In this document: positions 9,681 to 26,324 of the stretch, piece after piece
Layout: each line of letters begins with the position of its first letter
Numbering within the stretch: the stretch's first letter is position 1
Assembly (NCBI GenBank): GCA_024277255.1
Contig: JAJRVQ010000104.1
Location: 1-57,500 of the forward strand
From: Acidobacteriota bacterium
GTDB lineage: Bacteria > Acidobacteriota > Thermoanaerobaculia > Multivoradales > SZUA-115
Direction: 5' to 3'
DNA: 57,500 nucleotides
Position numbers and translations under genes: made by a program
Notes under the pieces: model-generated
Database searches by the model: none
What the model was told of the DNA's origin: nothing
The model's input: only the letters and a program-made list of their open reading frames with translations

Positions 9681-11282
9681 ATGCAGTCCAAAGACGCGCG
9701 CCGTGAAGAGGTCCTTGTCGAACTGGAGCGGGCGGGTGGCTTGAAGCCGGGGGTGGCGGGTCGGGTTCATCGGCGCACCGGGGTGCCGGAGGCGGATGTG
9801 TACGGCGTTGCGACCTTCTACCATCTGTTGTCGCAGCCGGATGTGCAGGTGCGCGTCTGCCAAGGGTTGTCGTGCAAGATCGCCGGTGGCGACGAGTTTC
9901 TGGCCGAGCAGGAGGCGGAGGGCACCAGTGTCGGATTCACCTCCTGTCTGGGCCGTTGCGATCTGGCACCGGCGTGGTGGGATCGCTCCGACGAGGCGCC
10001 GATCGCCGCCGCCGCTTGCGTGCCCAGTGGGGAAGGATTGGCGATCGACTTGGCGGGCCGCGATTCGGCTCGCTACGCGGCGCTGGCGCTGGCCGAGGAG
10101 CGGGGGAGTGATTGGGTCTGCGGCCAGCTCGAGGCCGCCGGCTTGCAGGGTCGCGGTGGGGCCGGTTTCCCGGCTTACATCAAGTGGAATGCGGTGCGCG
10201 GCCAGGCGGTGAAAGAACGCTACGTGGTACTCAACGCCGACGAGGGGGAGCCGGGCACCTTCAAGGATCGCGAAGTGATGCTGCGCCGGCCGCACCTGGT
10301 GATCGAGGGGCTGGCCATCGCGGCGCTGACCCTGGGCGCGGACGATATCTACCTGTATGTGCGCGGCGAGTTTGGGCGGGCCCGCTACGCGCTCGAAACG
10401 GCACTGGCCGAGGCCCGGGAATGGATCGATCCCGAAGATCCCGAGGGGCCGGTGCGAAGCAAGGTGCCCAGCCATCTGCGCTGGCATTTCGTCGACGGCC
10501 ACGGAGCCTACATCTGCGGCGAGGAGACGGCGCTGCTCGAAGCGCTCGAGGGCAAGCGCGGCATGCCGCGGATGAAGCCGCCCTTTCCCGTCGAAGTGGG
10601 CTTCCGCGGGCAGCCGACGTTGATCCAGAATGTCGAGACGATCAGCTGCCTGCCGGCGATCTTGCTACGCGGTGGCGAGTGGTTCAAGGCGGCGGGACGC
10701 ACCGAGCCGGGACCGAAGCTCTACTGTGTTTCCGGCCATGTCCATCGTCCCGGTGTTTACGAGGCACCGCTGGGAATCACCATGCGCGAGCTGTTGGAGA
10801 TGGCTGGAGGGGCGGTCGGTACGGTCAAGGCCTTCTCGCCCGGCGGTGCTTCGAGCGGCTTTCTGCCGGCCGACCAGCTGGATGTGGAACTGGGTTTCAA
10901 ATCCCTGGCGGCGGCCGGCAGCATGCTCGGTTCGGCCGGGGTGGTGGTGCTCAACGAGACGGTGGACATGGTGGAAGCGGCGTTGATTCAGGCGGTCTTC
11001 TTCGAGGACGAGTCCTGCGGTCAGTGTGCACCGTGCAGAATCGGCACGCAGATCCTGCGCCAGGCGTTGGAGCGCTACTTGGCCTCCGACCAAGGGTCGG
11101 GGAACCGGGACCCGAGCGTGCTGGCCGACGTGATGGAGGTCTCTTGGGGGATGACCGAGGCGAGTATTTGCGGGCTGGGGCAGGCGGCCTCGCTGCCACT
11201 GATGAGTGCGATGAAGTATTTCCCGGCCGAGTTCGGCCTTGAGAGCGAGCAAGATGGAACCAATGGAACCAGGAGAGCGTGA
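9681..11282 (+). CDS. fdhB: NAD-linked formate dehydrogenase, fused NuoE/NuoF-type diaphorase subunit
   Basis: 533 aa, cytoplasmic. Residues 1-115 are a NuoE-like thioredoxin-fold [2Fe-2S] domain with all four ligands (CQGLSC and CLGRC). From about residue 155 it is NuoF-like: GRGGAGFP for FMN, GEPGTFKDR for NAD, an SLBB-type segment, and the C-terminal [4Fe-4S] site CGQCAPC plus a later Cys (SICGLG). The fused layout matches the beta subunit of NAD-dependent formate dehydrogenases (FdsB/HoxF relatives). It passes electrons between the molybdopterin subunit encoded next and NAD+. Its TGA overlaps the fdhA ATG by one base. A hydrogenase diaphorase role is unlikely because the partner is a formate dehydrogenase. 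Confidence 0.88.
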   Translation: MQSKDARREEVLVELERAGGLKPGVAGRVHRRTGVPEADVYGVATFYHLLSQPDVQVRVCQGLSCKIAGGDEFLAEQEAEGTSVGFTSCLGRCDLAPAWWDRSDEAPIAAAACVPSGEGLAIDLAGRDSARYAALALAEERGSDWVCGQLEAAGLQGRGGAGFPAYIKWNAVRGQAVKERYVVLNADEGEPGTFKDREVMLRRPHLVIEGLAIAALTLGADDIYLYVRGEFGRARYALETALAEAREWIDPEDPEGPVRSKVPSHLRWHFVDGHGAYICGEETALLEALEGKRGMPRMKPPFPVEVGFRGQPTLIQNVETISCLPAILLRGGEWFKAAGRTEPGPKLYCVSGHVHRPGVYEAPLGITMRELLEMAGGAVGTVKAFSPGGASSGFLPADQLDVELGFKSLAAAGSMLGSAGVVVLNETVDMVEAALIQAVFFEDESCGQCAPCRIGTQILRQALERYLASDQGSGNRDPSVLADVMEVSWGMTEASICGLGQAASLPLMSAMKYFPAEFGLESEQDGTNGTRRA

Positions 11283-14053
11283 TGGCTGAGAGCAAATTCG
11301 TGGTGATCGACGGTAACGAACTGCACTTCGAGGCCGGGGAGACGATTCTCCAGGCGGCCCGCCGGGCCGAGATCGAGATTCCCACCCTCTGTCATGACGA
11401 CCGGGTGACCCCGGCCGGTGCCTGCCGGATCTGTCTGGTGGAGGTGGACGGCGCCCGGTTGATGCAGCCGGCATGCCACACCCGGACCGCACCCGGCATG
11501 GTGGTACGCACACGGACCGCCAAGGTGGCGCGCAACCGGCGCTTCGTCCTCTCCTTGCACCTGGCCGACACCATCGAAGATCGCCAGGTGGCGCAGGACA
11601 ACAACCCTTCGCGCCTTCACGCTCTGGCCGAGGAGTACGGCACCGCCGGCCGTTGGACCCACGTCGACTCGCCGCGCCAAGGGCGCCCGGACGACGACAA
11701 CCCCTTCATCACTTTCCGCCCCGACCGCTGCATCGCCTGCTCGTTGTGCACCCGCTACTGCGACCAGGTGGAGGCGGTCAGCGCCATCACCCTGGCCATG
11801 CGAGGTGCCGAGACGACCATCGCCACCGCCGACGGCCGCTCGCTGAGTGACACCACCTGCGAGCTGTGCGGCGGCTGCATCGATGTCTGCCCGACCGGCG
11901 CGATGAGTGAAGTCCAAGCGCTGGCTTACGGCAAGGCGGAGCACGAACTGGACAAGGTGCGCACCACCTGCAACTTCTGCGGCGTCGGCTGCCAGCTCGA
12001 CCTCAACGTCGATCGCGCGGCCAATCGCGTGGTCAAGGTGACCAGCCCGCCGCCGGGAACCACGGTCAACGATGGCAACCTGTGCGTCAAAGGGCGCTTC
12101 GCCAACGACTTCATCCACCACCAAGACCGGCTGACCGTGCCGCTGGTACGCGGTGACGGTGGCGCGCTCCATCCGGCGACTTGGGACGAGGCGCTGGATC
12201 GGGTCGCCGCCGGCCTCGGCGCGGTGGCGGCCGAACACGGCAACGATGCCCTCGCCTTCATCAGCTCCAGCCGCTGCACTGTAGAGGAGAACTACCTCTT
12301 CCAGAAGATGGCCCGCGCCGCCTATCGAACACACAACATCCATCAGTGTGCCGCCACGTGACACGCTCCCACGGTCGCCGGTCTGGTGACCACGTTCGGA
12401 GCCGGGGCGATGACCAACTCGATCCCGGAGATACGGCAGGCGGATTTCCTCTTCGTCATCGGTTCCAACACCAGCGAAGCCCACCCGATCATCGCCATGG
12501 AGATGAAACGGGCGGTGCAGCGCGGCGCACGGCTGGCGGTGGCCGACCCGCGCGCCATCTGGATGAGCCAGATCGCCGACTGGCATTTGCAGCTCAAGCC
12601 GGGCACCGACGTCTGGCTGCTCAACGCCCTGGCCCACGTTATTCTTGACGAGGGGCTGGAGGCCCAGGAGTGGATCGAGGCCAACACCGAAGGGTTCGCG
12701 GCGGTGCGCGAGACGGTGGCCGGATACACGCCGGAGAAGGCGGAAGAGATCACCGGCGTGCCGGCCGAGACCATTCGCCAGGTGGCCCGCGCCTACGCCA
12801 CCACCGAGAAGGCGGGGATCTACTACACCCTGGGCATCACCGAACACACCACCGGCACGGACAACGTCTACGCCCTATCCAACCTGGTCTTGATGACCGG
12901 CCACCTGGGGATTCGCTCAGCGGGGATGAACCCGCTGCGCGGCCAGAACAACGTCCAAGGCGCCAACGACGCGGGGGCGACGCCGGTCTTCTATCCCGGC
13001 TATCAGCGGGCCGAGGACCACCAAGTGCGGGCCAAGTTCGCCGCCGGCTGGGGCGTCGAGCAGAGCGAGACTCCCGGTCTCAACCTCAACCAGATGATGA
13101 AGGCGATGGGCGACGGCCGGTTACGCGGTCTCTACTTGATGGGCGAGGACATCGTCATTTCCGAGCCCAACGTGGGCCGGGTGGAGAAGGCGATGAACGA
13201 ACTGGACTTCGTCGTCGTCCAGGACATTTTCTTCAACGAGAGCTGCCGCTTTGCCGATGTGGTGCTGCCGGCCGCCTGCTTCGCCGAGAAAGAGGGTGTC
13301 TTCACCAACTCCGATCGCCGGGTGCAGCGGGTTCGCAAGGCGGTCGAGCCGCCGGGCGAGGCGCGGGCCGACTGGCACATCATCCTCGAAGTGATGAAGC
13401 GGGCCGGGCTGAAGCAGCCGGACTACCGGACCCCGGCCGAGGTCTACGACGAGATCGCCGCGCTGACGCCCAAGTTCGCCGGCATCTCGCACCAGCGCAT
13501 CGAGCGTGAGGGCGGCCTCCAGTGGCCGGTCGAGTCCCCCGAAGCGCCGAGCACCGAGTACCTCCACCGTGGCGGCGTGCTGCGTGGCAAGGGGCTCTTC
13601 CAGGCGGTCGAGTTCCGGCCGCCCTTCGAGTGCGAGGATGCCGAGTACCCGCTGGTCCTCTCCACCGGTCGCACCCTCTACCACTACAACGCCGCCACCC
13701 AGACCCGCCGCTCGGAAGGGCTGAGCGGCAAGCAGCCGGAGTGTTTCGTGGAGGTGCACCGCCGTGACGCCGGCAAGCTGGGCATCGAAGACGGCCAGCT
13801 GGTCGATGTGGTCAGCCGCCGGGGCCGTGTGCGCTGCCGGGCGATGGTCAGCCGCCAAGTGCGCCGCGGCGCCATCTGGATGCCCTTCCACTTCCCCGAA
13901 GCGCGAACCAACTACCTGACCACCGACGCCGGCGACGCGGTCACCGGAACGGGCGAGTACAAGGTCTGCGCCGCCCGCATCGAACCGGTCACCGGCGCGG
14001 TGGCGGAGAAGGTTTTTCCGGGGGCTTATGCGGCGGCGGGTGGAGAGAGCTAA
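11282..14053 (+). CDS. fdhA: Selenocysteine-containing formate dehydrogenase, molybdopterin (alpha) subunit
   Basis: 923 aa if TGA at 12359-12361 is read as selenocysteine (residue 360). The ATG at 11282 has AGGAG 6 nt upstream. Order: N-terminal [2Fe-2S] ferredoxin domain (Cys near 38, 49, 52, 66); two [4Fe-4S] motifs (CIACSLCTRYC, CELCGGCIDVC); molybdopterin-enzyme [4Fe-4S] site (CNFCGVGC…CVKG); catalytic segment 'HQCAAT-U-HAPTVAGL', equivalent to 'CCARV-U-HGPSVAGL' in E. coli FdhF; then the molybdopterin-dinucleotide domain ('LSTGRTLYHYN'). The frame stays open without a shift on both sides of the TGA. The His-Cys3 cluster usual after the ferredoxin domain is missing. It oxidises formate (or reduces CO2) with fdhB, using bis-MGD Mo or W. 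Confidence 0.93.
12365..12402 (+). promoter_or_regulatory. bSECIS-like hairpin for selenocysteine insertion in fdhA
   Basis: Directly after the in-frame TGA, a 7-bp stem GGTCGCC (12373-12379) with GGTGACC (12385-12391) closes a 5-nt loop GGTCT. An outer 5-bp stem GCTCC (12365-12369) with GGAGC (12398-12402) encloses it. The loop text matches the GGUCU apical motif of the E. coli fdhF element, and the loop begins 19 nt after TGA, within the known bacterial spacing. It should recruit SelB with Sec-tRNA. Confidence 0.85.
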
Positions 14054-22132: not shown

Positions 22133-23383
22133 TCAGGCGATCCGCGAGCCGTGATCGGCCCACACCAGGCCGGAAACCAACTTGGGGAGGAAGCGGGTCG
22201 CCTTGGGCGGCAGCATGTCGCCGTGAGCGATGGCGGCGGCGAACTGGTGGGGCGACATCGGCGGCAGGGCGAACCCTACCGCCAGATCTCCGGCCGTCAG
22301 CTGCTCGCTCAGTTGCGCCGGGTCGGAGCGGTAGACGACGGTGCCGTCGGTGGCCGCGGAAGCGCTGAGACCGAGAGCCGGAAAGACCATCCCGTGGAGC
22401 AGCGAAACGGTGAGACTCTTGGCGCTGTCGGGGATCGCCTCCCCGGCCCGGGTTGGATCGAGCTGCCAGATCTCGGGCAGCCGGCCGACTTTCCACACGC
22501 CGAGCGCCGGCTGCGGGGCGACGGCGACGGCGGCCGCCAGTTCGCTCATGTCCTGGGCGTCGACCGGGCGAGTCTCCACCACCAGGTGGGCCGCGGCTGA
22601 AATGTCGATCGGCCGGCGCAGCGCCCGGTGGATCGGATCGATGGTCAGACCGGGCGAGGAGAGGCTGGTGATCACCGCCATCTTGGCGTTGGCCGCGGTC
22701 ACCTCGGCGGTACCTTCGGCGGCGCCCGACCTTTCGGCGTAGAGGCGAGCCGTCTTGTAACGGTGGTGGCCATCGGCGATGGCGACCGGCAGAGGGGCCA
22801 GCAGCTCCTGGTAGCGGGAAATGCGCTCGGGGTCGCTCACCCGATAGAGCCGATGACGATGGCCGCCGGCGTCGGTGTGCTCGGCCAGCGGCTCGGCTCC
22901 GTCGAGGTCGTGGCCGATCAGGGCCTCCAGTCGCCCTTCGTCTTGCGACAGGAAGAAGACCGGTTCGAGGTCGATCCGGGTCGCCTCCAGTAGGGCGACA
23001 CGATCGGCCAGCGGCTTGGCCAGCGTCTCCTCGTGGGGGCGGATGATGCCGGCATCGGGGGCTTCGAGCCCCGCCAGACCGCAGATTCCCAGCCGCTGGC
23101 CGCCGCCGGCAAGCTCGGTCGAGCAGATGTACAGGCTCGGCTCTTCGTCGCGGGTCAAGATGCCGTCGCTCATCCAGGAGCTGTGCAGCCGGGCGGCGGT
23201 ACCGTACGCGTCGCCGCCGGCGTCGGCGAGAGGCTTGGTCAGATGGCTGAACTGGTGGGAGGAAAGCGCGTGCAGTTGATCGCGGGCGGCGTCATCCAGC
23301 TGGTCGTACGGGGGTGCCGCCAGCGGGTCGATCTCGGCGCTGGGGCGGTTGTAGCGAATGCCTTGAAAGGCGTAGAGGCGCAT
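22133..23383 (-). CDS. DUF1015 family protein
   Basis: 416 aa from the minus-strand ATG at 23383 (AGGAG upstream), where the typical 'MRLYAFQGIRYN' start lies. Family signatures 'LAAPPYDQL', 'RPHEETL', 'PVAIADGHHRYKTA' and a C-terminal 'KATRFLPKLVSGLVW' are all present, so the gene is intact. DUF1015 includes the SbnI-type serine kinases, but most members have no proven function; a small-molecule kinase role is a guess. It lies 145 nt downstream of the DUF3179 gene and 12 nt before the rhodanese-like gene. Confidence 0.85.
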   Translation of the reverse strand: MRLYAFQGIRYNRPSAEIDPLAAPPYDQLDDAARDQLHALSSHQFSHLTKPLADAGGDAYGTAARLHSSWMSDGILTRDEEPSLYICSTELAGGGQRLGICGLAGLEAPDAGIIRPHEETLAKPLADRVALLEATRIDLEPVFFLSQDEGRLEALIGHDLDGAEPLAEHTDAGGHRHRLYRVSDPERISRYQELLAPLPVAIADGHHRYKTARLYAERSGAAEGTAEVTAANAKMAVITSLSSPGLTIDPIHRALRRPIDISAAAHLVVETRPVDAQDMSELAAAVAVAPQPALGVWKVGRLPEIWQLDPTRAGEAIPDSAKSLTVSLLHGMVFPALGLSASAATDGTVVYRSDPAQLSEQLTAGDLAVGFALPPMSPHQFAAAIAHGDMLPPKATRFLPKLVSGLVWADHGSRIA

Positions 23384-23528
23384 GGCTGGCTCCTGGTCGA
23401 AAGGCTCCTCGAAGGTCGGGAGACGATTGTATCCGGGATGCGATGCCACGGGCCGGATCTTGGCCGGAGGAAGGTTCGCCGGGGCGACCGTGAAGATCGT
23501 CCCGGCGCACTACGAGCAGGACGGTCGC

Positions 23529-24578
23529 TTACTGAGTCAGGATCTTGGTGTCGGGGTTGGCCATGCTCCAGTTGAACCAGAAAGTGTCGAAACCATCCAA
23601 CCGCTCGACCTTGGCGCCCTCGCCGCCGACGAAACGGCCGGCTTCGGCGTCGAAGACGGCACCGGAGGCGATGTCGAGCCAGCGCTCACCGTCGCGTTTG
23701 AAACCATCGCCGACAAAGGCAAAGGTCGAGTAGAAGATCTCGACACCGGCGGGGCGATAGAGGAAGAGCTGGCGATCCCCTAGCTGGACAACACCGCCGT
23801 CTTCAAAGGCGGAGAAGGGTACGGCGTAGGGTTTTCCTTGCCGGTGAAACGAGTAGATCGGCTGCTTGGTGGGCAGCCGGGTGTCGGTCGATTCGACACC
23901 GCGAAAACCGGAGTCCGAGCGGAAATAGTTGTCGTAGGGGTTGTTGTCATCATGCTCGACACCCTCGACCGAGAGCACCAGAGTGTTGGGATGGTCGGCC
24001 ACCCAGTCTTTCCATTGGACCTTTTCGCCCAGGGGGAGTTCGCGCAAGGCGGTGCCTTTGAACTCACCTGCCAGCGAATCGCCGCTCATGATCGACCAGT
24101 AGCTGTCGGTCTCTTTGTCTTGCATGATCAGCGAGGCGTGAATCAGCCCGCCCGAAGCCTCGAAGCGCAGTTCTTTATCGTTGTATTCGCGGCCGTACAC
24201 GACGGCCGTATTGGCCAGCGGTCACCACACCGCGGCAAAGGACCGCTCTCCGATCTTGTCGTTGATCACCTCGTGGTGGTTGAGCAGATTGAGGCTGTAG
24301 GCCTTGGCCACGCCGTCGATCTCGACGCCGAGCACCCAGGCCTCGTCGGAGATCTTCGCCTCTTTGGCCGAGACGAACTGCGGTTCGTCCACCGAGGCGA
24401 TCATGCCGCGAGGAATCAGCTGCTTGAAGGTGTCGGGCAGGTCGGGGTGCGGCTCGGGGAGCTGGGGCTTCTCTGCGGCGCGCGCCCCACCGGCCCAAGA
24501 AAGGGCGGCCAACAGCGCTAGCGCAGTGGTGGCCACCGTGGTCCCGGGACGGCCCCAGCCTCGGTCAGATCGAATCAT
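23529..24578 (-). CDS. DUF3179 exported protein with in-frame TGA at the conserved Cys: candidate selenoprotein
   Basis: 349 aa if TGA (24224-24222) encodes Sec119. Residues 1-35 form a signal peptide (…AGGARAAEK), so it acts outside the cytoplasm. Family blocks run in order on both sides of the TGA: 'VLGVEIDGVAKAYSLNLLNHHEVIND' before; 'PLANTAVVYGRE', 'ASGGLIHASLIMQDKETDSYW' and 'WVADHPNTLVLS' after. In DUF3179 (PF11376) proteins the residue before PL is the conserved Cys ('VTYCPL'); here it is TGA within 'AVW-U-PLANT'. No frameshift is needed, 230 codons stay open, and a 7-bp hairpin starts 14 nt after TGA. There is no other Cys in the protein. Its start overlaps the APH-type kinase gene by 14 nt. 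Alternative: a single nonsense mutation of TGC/TGT, making it a pseudogene. Confidence 0.75.
24190..24208 (-). promoter_or_regulatory. Putative bSECIS hairpin of the DUF3179 gene
   Basis: On the minus strand, 13 nt after the TGA, CGGCCGT pairs perfectly with ACGGCCG (7 bp) around a 5-nt loop CGTGT. Stem length, loop size and distance nearly copy the fdhA element (7 bp, 5 nt, 11 nt). The loop keeps a GU but not GGUCU, and no lower stem is evident, so SelB binding is a prediction. Confidence 0.55.
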
Positions 24579-25686
24579 CGGTTGTCTCCCATTTGGTTGT
24601 GGATCCTGAGCAGTCTACTGCGCGTTCGTCCGGAGTACGGCGCTGGTCGGGCGAGGGATTGCAACCACCGGGGGCGAAGCCGCAAGCGATGCGGAAAACC
24701 TCTTCAGCCTGCCGCGGTGAAACGGCGCGCAATCGGCGCATCAGGGGCCAGATTGCCGGTGAGCTGATGCCGACATGGGGGTTGTCCGGCTCGCGGCGGC
24801 GCTCGCGCGCACCTAGGATCACGCTGACGGTGAGCCGGGCGCACAGCAGGGGGAAGAGAAGGGCTACCTCCTCCTCGTCGAGAGCCACTTCGCCATGGTA
24901 GCCGGCGATGAGGCGGCTGCCGGTAGCCAAGGGGTCTTCCTGTCCGATCATGGCGTAGGCGGCGGCGATCGCCGGATCGCAGACCAGACTGCTCTTCACC
25001 ACATCGCCAAAATCGATGAAGCCGGCGAGATCGCCGTGCTCATCGACCAGAACGTTGTGGATGTTGGCGTCGCTGTGGATCACGCTCTGGCGCAGCCCGG
25101 CCAGTCGCGGCTCGGCGAGGGTGCGAAATTGCAGCAGAAAGTACTCGGCGAGGGCTCGATGATCGCGGCGGGGAATGGTCGCGATGTGCTCGCCGGCTTG
25201 GGCGGCGTGGCGCAGGTCCCATTCGAACCGGCGCTCGGCGGAGGGATCGTCAAAGCTGGCCAGGGCTTTGTCCAGCTTGCCCAGCGCTCGGCCAAGAGTC
25301 GACAAGAGTTCCGGCCGGTACTGGTCCAATTCGGCCATCTGGCGACCGGCGACGAAGGTCAGCCGGCGTATCACGCACGGTGTGGCTGCATCGTCGACGA
25401 CTTCCACCAGCGATGAACCGCCGGAGGCCGGGCAAACCCGCGGCAGCTGGAATTCCACCGGCTGCCGTTGCAAGTGGATCAGTACAGAATTCTGCAGCTC
25501 GACCGCTGGGCGCTGGTCGGCGGTGGAAACCTTCAGGATCGAGCGGTTGCCGGAAGAGTCTTCGAGCAGGAAGTTGCGGTCGTCATACGAGGGCAACTCA
25601 CGGGCGGTGGCCCTCAGACCATAGTGATCCGCGGCCAGTTGGCGAGCGCTTTGTGGGCTGACCTGCGGCCGGCGAGGCTGGGTCAT
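24565..25686 (-). CDS. Aminoglycoside phosphotransferase-fold small-molecule kinase (hydroxylysine kinase-like)
   Basis: 373 aa. APH/choline-kinase fold: ATP-binding N-lobe ('NFLLEDSSGNRSILKVS'), catalytic 'VIHSDANIHNVLVDEHG' (HxDxxxxN) and metal-binding 'GFIDFGDVV' (the DFG-like Asp). The text between and the 'SLVCDPAIAAAYAM' block resemble the kinase domain found in hydroxylysine kinase and in class III aminotransferase fusions. Substrate probably an amino alcohol or amino acid; not certain. It overlaps mocA upstream by 4 nt and the DUF3179 gene downstream by 14 nt, so the three are one translational unit. The last 30 residues (Pro/Arg/Thr-rich) are outside the domain. Confidence 0.75.
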   Translation of the reverse strand: MTQPRRPQVSPQSARQLAADHYGLRATARELPSYDDRNFLLEDSSGNRSILKVSTADQRPAVELQNSVLIHLQRQPVEFQLPRVCPASGGSSLVEVVDDAATPCVIRRLTFVAGRQMAELDQYRPELLSTLGRALGKLDKALASFDDPSAERRFEWDLRHAAQAGEHIATIPRRDHRALAEYFLLQFRTLAEPRLAGLRQSVIHSDANIHNVLVDEHGDLAGFIDFGDVVKSSLVCDPAIAAAYAMIGQEDPLATGSRLIAGYHGEVALDEEEVALLFPLLCARLTVSVILGARERRREPDNPHVGISSPAIWPLMRRLRAVSPRQAEEVFRIACGFAPGGCNPSPDQRRTPDERAVDCSGSTTKWETTDDSI

Positions 25687-26324
25687 GATCGGATCTCCCC
25701 GACCGCCTGGGCGGCGAGTCGGGCGTAGTCCTCGGGAGTGTCGACATCGCGGACCACGCCAGGGTCGCCGGTGGGTAGCGAAACCAGCTCCTCGGCGTGC
25801 AGGGTCAGGAGTTGGCGCAGCCCCAGTTCAAGATCGAGTTGGGCGATCTCGCCGGCCAGCCGGTGGGCGATGGCCAGTGGGTGGCCGCGCTTGCCGCGCC
25901 AGGTTGGAACCGCCAGTGCGACGCCGGTCTGATCCAGGGCCCGAACGACCTGGGTGACACTCTCGGCCTTGAGGCGCGGCAGATCGGCGGGGCTGACCAG
26001 CAGGGTCGGCTCGCGGTAGAGCTGGAGCGCCACCGCGACACCGGCCTGAATCGTGCTCAGCATGCCCCGGTGGGGAGCCGGGTTTTCGACTTGGCGGATT
26101 TTGTGCTCTTTCGCCCAGTGGATCAGGGTGCGGTCGTCCGCTCGGGTGACCACGATGACGGCGTGCGCGCCGCCGCGTTCGAGCGCGCTGACGGTGGCGC
26201 CGATCAACGTCGTATCGCCGAAGGGCAGCAGGGGCTTGGCTCGTCCCATCCGCCGGGATCGGCCGGCCGCGGGGACCACGGCGACGACCTTGCGGTACTG
26301 CTTCCTCTCACGCCGAGGCGTCAT
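25683..26324 (-). CDS. MocA/MobA-like nucleotidyltransferase
   Basis: 213 aa. GT-A fold NTP transferase with the signature '[24 protein letters not shown]' near the N-terminus, 'VSPADLPRL' as the metal-binding aspartate site and '[10 protein letters not shown]' further on. This set is that of MocA, the CTP:molybdopterin cytidylyltransferase, and of related proteins. Molybdopterin cofactor work would fit a genome with a formate dehydrogenase, although FDH uses the guanine form. It is first in the group leading to the kinase and DUF3179 genes and divergent from nadE. Other sugar- or polyol-nucleotidyl roles cannot be excluded. Confidence 0.7.

Follow-up and report, generated by a model that had tools for sequence, protein, structure and literature searches.

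Does an in-frame TGA in a DUF3179 gene of an acidobacterium encode selenocysteine (Sec), and if so, what might the protein do with it? The gene lies in a window of 57,500 nucleotides (positions 1 to 57,500 of contig JAJRVQ010000104.1, assembly GCA_024277255.1; order Multivoradales, class Thermoanaerobaculia), where the first-pass annotation had described one reading frame in which DUF3179 sequence flanks a single TGA, with no frameshift and 230 open codons after it. This description holds for the 349-codon frame: the match to PF11376 (DUF3179) covers residues 59-344 and passes through the TGA without a frameshift, and its score of 191.7 bits exceeds the curated Pfam cut-off of 27. The site reads VWUPLANT, and the protein has no Cys, as had been noted from the start, the lone 'C' in its sequence record (P0001) being the TGA position. 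Standard ORF calling breaks the gene into two ORFs. From its signal-peptide-like N-terminus, judged by eye, the protein is predicted to be exported. By examining relatives of the gene, the hairpin that follows the TGA, and the Sec genes of the genome, we arrive at an account in which a member of an already catalogued family would decode Sec by means of this hairpin and the genome's own Sec genes, and would act outside the cytoplasm as a one-selenol redox centre; taken as a whole, we hold this account with modest confidence. The features concerned are collected in Table 1.

Table 1. Features of the window discussed in the text (predicted features are so marked)
Feature	Position	Strand	Basis or remark
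DUF3179 gene, predicted selenoprotein	23529..24578	minus	349 codons including one in-frame TGA; ATG start at 24578, TAG stop ending at 23529
Predicted Sec codon 119 (TGA)	24222..24224	minus	Aligned codon is TGA in 50 loci; Cys at this site in 34 of the 35 listed homologues of at least 260 aa
Signal-peptide-like N-terminus, about residues 1-35	24474..24578	minus	By eye; low pLDDT at residues 1-29
Predicted SECIS hairpin, CGGCCGU-CGUGU-ACGGCCG	24190..24208	minus	7 bp, loop CGUGU; folding and covariation
Conserved pair His102-Glu103	24270..24275	minus	H102 in 58/58 and E103 in 56/58 rows; contact with Sec119 predicted
First DUF3179 half, residues 88-189	24012..24317	minus	Lead to a Rieske-like fold
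Second DUF3179 half, residues 226-349, internal repeat of the first	23532..23903	minus	Halves of relative P0122 align, E 1.1e-18
D154..T157...W161....G166, spacing of second Rieske box, Cys/His replaced	24081..24119	minus	By eye against Rieske sequences of the same genome
Formate-dehydrogenase-type molybdopterin protein, second Sec gene	11279..14053	plus	TGA at 12359-12361

Relatives of the gene are common in the order, where 60 of 72 genomes match the window protein and 33 have a TGA-bearing match; in 24 genomes (including its own) the match is nearly full-length, contains a single in-frame TGA and shows 48-100% identity. At E <= 1e-30, matches were found in 33 of 148 genomes at the level of the class and in 35 of 396 genomes of a phylum sample, of which 26 carry a TGA-bearing match and 9 solely an uninterrupted one. 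The closest of six relatives in a search of genome contigs is the MAG 'Acidobacteria bacterium isolate SZUA-115', at 84% identity. We assembled 50 non-duplicate, TGA-bearing loci found with the UxxA form as bait (L038 was left out as a duplicate of L047, and L002, L037, L039 and L040 as duplicates of L003, L004, L006 and L007; weaker TGA matches without a fetched locus are not among the 50), and in all 50 the TGA falls at the codon aligned to 119. Among protein homologues (314 in total, 120 of them listed), the 35 listed ones of at least 260 aa have Cys at this site in 34 cases and Ser in one (P0034), with Ala at +3 in every one; Cys also stands there in all eight Cys-type loci, so that Sec or Cys occupies position 119 in 58 of 58 aligned rows. 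The TGA thus sits where the family has its Cys, as the first-pass annotation had claimed. That annotation would have been undermined by Cys-bearing relatives combined with a lack of TGA in other genomes: the Cys relatives do exist, and so do TGA-bearing ones. The Ser relative P0034 is a full-length homologue with no Cys at all, and may function without Sec or Cys. The window's own genome also contains a DUF3179 paralogue (L001, contig C56, 1033-2409 on the plus strand; 458 aa), with a longer N-terminus, the motif CTLCG and no TGA.

The hairpin proposed in the first-pass annotation, with a perfect 7-bp stem and a 5-nt loop containing GU, is present, and its first paired base lies 14 nt 3' of the TGA. 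The bSECIS model, as given in PMC13188914, calls for a loop of 3-9 nt, a stem of 4-16 bp, a G as the first or second base of the loop, a spacing of 16-37 nt between UGA and loop, and a minimum free energy of -7.5 kcal/mol or lower; the window hairpin conforms, with G as the second loop base, a distance of 20 nt, and -11.3 kcal/mol when folded alone. A 45-nt fold of the window from the TGA favours a different structure (-15.7 kcal/mol), and a fold starting at +13 yields the hairpin. Since 9.4% of synonymous recodings of the window gene also give seven of seven pairs (P 0.094), the window by itself is no proof of a hairpin. An Rfam search of 24100-24320 returned two weak matches only, far below gathering scores.

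Across the 50 loci, however, the hairpin is clearly under selection and kept by compensatory changes. Its offset is identical and gapless in all of them, and 332 of 350 possible pairs are formed, against 258.8 +/- 5.6 (maximum 278) in 5000 trials of synonymous recoding with each gene's codon usage; all seven pairs occur in 34 loci (mean 3.3 and maximum 10 in 5000 null trials), the remaining 16 being without one or two, and the pair column 20-32 is broken in 14 of 49 rows. The covariation that had been suggested as a check was found: five of the seven pairs have changed on both sides, with 33 double-change cells among 49 distinct rows, and of five covariation measures four were reached by none of 500 shuffles and the other, pair types, by 6 of 500. 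When the structure is shifted by 1-3 columns, 26-47% of the pairs form, versus 94.8% in register. At the codon level, where Val (GTN) is replaced by Ile (ATC or ATA) the facing Tyr codon is TAT (4/4), and otherwise the facing codon is TAC or CAC (46/46); an AGC codon on the facing side goes with GCT for Ala (5/5). The loop (A2 positions 24-28) falls into two classes, C-GUG-Y in 30 loci and R-GUY-Y in 20, so that the third positions of two Val codons move together, and G-U is constant at loop positions 2 and 3. The isolated hairpin is weaker than -7.5 kcal/mol in 16 loci, and with five or more pairs it is the minimum of the +13 to +45 fold in 36. In eight Cys-type relatives, 29 of the 56 possible pairs are present; these relatives are distant and fall short of an ideal control, because DNA was found for none of the Cys relatives of the UxxA branch.

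The window's own genome (G000; 5.9 Mb in 197 contigs) carries SelA (546.6 bits), SelB (326.5 bits), SelD (271.2 bits), and a tRNA-Sec with anticodon TCA (68.3 bits). The four genes selA to selD, for which a search had been recommended with the absence of selB or selC as a reason to abandon Sec, are therefore all there, and the Sec-type formate dehydrogenase previously noticed in the window is likewise confirmed. In the phylum sample, SelB (E <= 1e-60) was found in 22 of the 26 TGA genomes versus 256 of 396 overall (Fisher p 0.019), a weak test because Sec genes are common in the phylum. The four TGA genomes without SelB at this threshold all have a tRNA-Sec (68-76 bits), with SelA above the cut-off in G464 and G458, below it in G221, and absent from G430. 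Of the 33 TGA-match genomes of the order, 29 have SelB above the cut-off and the other four (G016, G020, G021, G068) have SelA above it; tRNA-Sec scores at least 66 bits in 31 of the 33, the exceptions being G024 and G068. Two side observations concern these genes. The ORF that contains the SelD match at L095 (345-2549, plus strand) is 734 aa long, over twice the 311 positions of the model, and SelD may therefore be fused there to another domain. In G003 and G004, genomes from the same genus, no more than 2.5-4 kb separates the tRNA-Sec from a further DUF3179 gene with a TGA (L096 3912-7420; L097 2487-6837); the L096 gene has the motif YUSLC and a membrane-like N-terminus.

We consider it very likely that the UGA at codon 119 is decoded as Sec, because the 50 aligned TGA loci, the Sec/Cys pairs, the covarying hairpin, the Sec genes, and the pattern of substitution after the TGA all agree, and Sec in place of the family Cys with a SECIS-type hairpin, as originally suggested, is thereby supported. 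The pattern of substitution bears on the idea that the TGA is a nonsense mutation or an assembly error, leaving a pseudogene or a product that stops at residue 118: between the window gene and the same-genus locus L004, dN is 0.10 and dS 0.66 on the 3' side of the TGA (0.08 and 0.34 on the 5' side), and the downstream part has therefore been kept as protein. A defective gene would account for the two ORFs of standard calling and for the C-terminal fragments in the protein database, where 85 of the listed homologues are shorter and all 12 of those examined start after the TGA; such fragments are, however, also what mis-called Sec genes are expected to leave. Set against the aligned TGA in 50 loci, the constraint after it, and the hairpin covariation, this explanation was rejected, and we give it next to no credence. 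Barely more credible is a TGA read as another amino acid, through an altered code or plain read-through. The Ser of P0034 shows that the site can differ, and Sec at 119 is itself predicted; yet 34 of the 35 long listed homologues have Cys, the hairpin is kept where the site is TGA but not in the Cys forms tested, and the genome has a tRNA-Sec matching the codon.

The suggestion that this is a new selenoprotein family did not stand. DUF3179 (PF11376) is catalogued as a selenoprotein family with the motif UxxC/T in the tables of PMC9312934, which credits the finding to Zhang and Gladyshev 2007, and of PMC13188914; it is named in one table row of PMC9230427, and is not mentioned in the available passages of PMC12013277. 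The rows for DUF3179 in the two catalogues assign it neither a structure nor a function. Two homologues with the motif CPLAN, P0045 and P0076, bear the NCBI name 'DUF3179 domain-containing (seleno)protein', so that NCBI naming already reaches the UxxA/CPLAN branch. NCBIfam has no family for four DUF3179 proteins searched, and we found no selenoprotein literature on Thermoanaerobaculia among open-licence papers. The window protein shares with the catalogued selenoproteins the Pfam domain and Sec at the first Cys of the motif; it differs from the form described in the tables of those two catalogues in being UxxA instead of UxxC/T (a descriptor that is not part of the Pfam definition), with no Cys in the protein, and we therefore call it a variant. 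Relative to these tables, the UxxA form without a second Cys is new. Among the 50 Sec rows, 38 are UxxA, 8 UxxC, 2 UxxE, 1 UxxT and 1 UxxV, shares that are biased toward UxxA because the bait was UxxA. Cys-type DUF3179 proteins, such as the paralogue L001, have the same domain, H102 and E103, and most invariant positions, whereas their motif is CTLCG or CPLCG and their genes lack both the TGA and the hairpin (in the eight tested). On a tree of 75 rows (P0123 and P0138, missed by the motif pattern, were left out), the CxxA rows require three changes, two of which concern lone Cys rows whose sisters have Sec (P0061 next to L024, P0076 next to L015); Sec and Cys have thus been swapped more than once.

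As to its architecture, DUF3179 is, on sequence comparison, an internal duplication: the two halves of the relative P0122 align with each other, and in the window alignment itself the halves match at only E 0.0031. Second DUF3179 matches in some proteins were also considered as tandem genes, and this was rejected, as these matches correspond to the C-terminal half of a single domain. A structure search with the window model gave no match at E <= 0.001 in Foldseek, and placed Rieske chains at ranks 1-6 with E-values of 0.0085 or worse. All 50 structure matches listed are, by title or as we take them to be, Rieske chains. Sequence profiles give this resemblance no support: compared with a Rieske profile, the DUF3179 halves gave E-values of 0.5 and 0.13, and reversed controls gave 0.64 and 0.24; among the Pfam matches up to E 5 for 45 sequences of alignment A1 there was no Rieske domain; and a PDB sequence search with A1 gave no match up to E 1. 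Rieske [2Fe-2S] proteins (PF00355; 3c0d, 2qpz, 3gce) hold their cluster by CxH and CxxH ligands, which are absent from DUF3179, the window protein having no Cys besides the Sec position; and the Sec/Cys of DUF3179 lies in an earlier strand hairpin, unlike the Rieske ligands. That the halves adopt a Rieske-like fold without cluster ligands is thus a lead provided by the structural model.

The conservation around the Sec site suggests what the protein may do. Of the conserved NHHE motif described earlier, the second His (H102) and the Glu (E103) stand and the first His varies. Strands are predicted at 104-109 and 112-119, and His102-Glu103 is predicted to face Sec119 across this strand hairpin. 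The +3 residue varies freely in Sec rows (A, C, E, T, V), and a second thiol or ligand there is therefore not required. We propose, tentatively and with slightly less than even confidence, a one-selenol chemistry in which the selenolate of Sec119, aided by His102-Glu103, would form the redox centre: with the help of His102 it would attack a peroxide, disulfide or sulfoxide as its oxidised substrate. An outside thiol would then restore the selenium, now oxidised; this thiol is proposed because the window protein itself lacks Cys. In UxxC relatives, an internal selenenylsulfide could form instead. The main rival holds that Sec119, His102 and Glu103 make up a metal-binding site, serving in electron transfer or as a metal chaperone or sensor. 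A conserved set of Sec/Cys, His and Glu in halves that resemble a metal-protein fold would suit it, while the freely varying +3 residue, which leaves no need for a second ligand at that position, and the missing Rieske ligands weigh against it, and we regard a metal site as unlikely. Combining the one-selenol centre with the fold lead, DUF3179 might be a tandem, cluster-free Rieske-fold selenoenzyme, whose selenol/His-Glu centre would occupy another loop of the first half, and with a UxxA branch across Acidobacteriota; this is a possibility that we rate somewhat below the one-selenol chemistry itself.

In the window, the DUF3179 gene belongs to an operon-like row (22133-26324, minus strand) with genes for a MobA-like NTP transferase, an APH-type kinase that overlaps the DUF3179 start by 14 nt, and a DUF1015 protein. 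Across 21 loci, DUF3179 gene halves and an antisense ORF alone recur in more than four, and no conserved neighbour hints at a redox pathway; as the window neighbours do not recur, we name no partner for DUF3179.

These results support as a selenoprotein gene what standard ORF calling splits in two, and provide a resource of 50 loci in which the SECIS co-varies, together with many Sec/Cys pairs. Should the fold lead prove true, the Rieske fold would have been put to a new use. For DUF3179, a family without an assigned function, the existence of a lone-selenol branch points to the first Cys/Sec, together with His-Glu, as the residue that does the work and to a second Cys that the protein can do without, a hint that narrows the search for what the family does.
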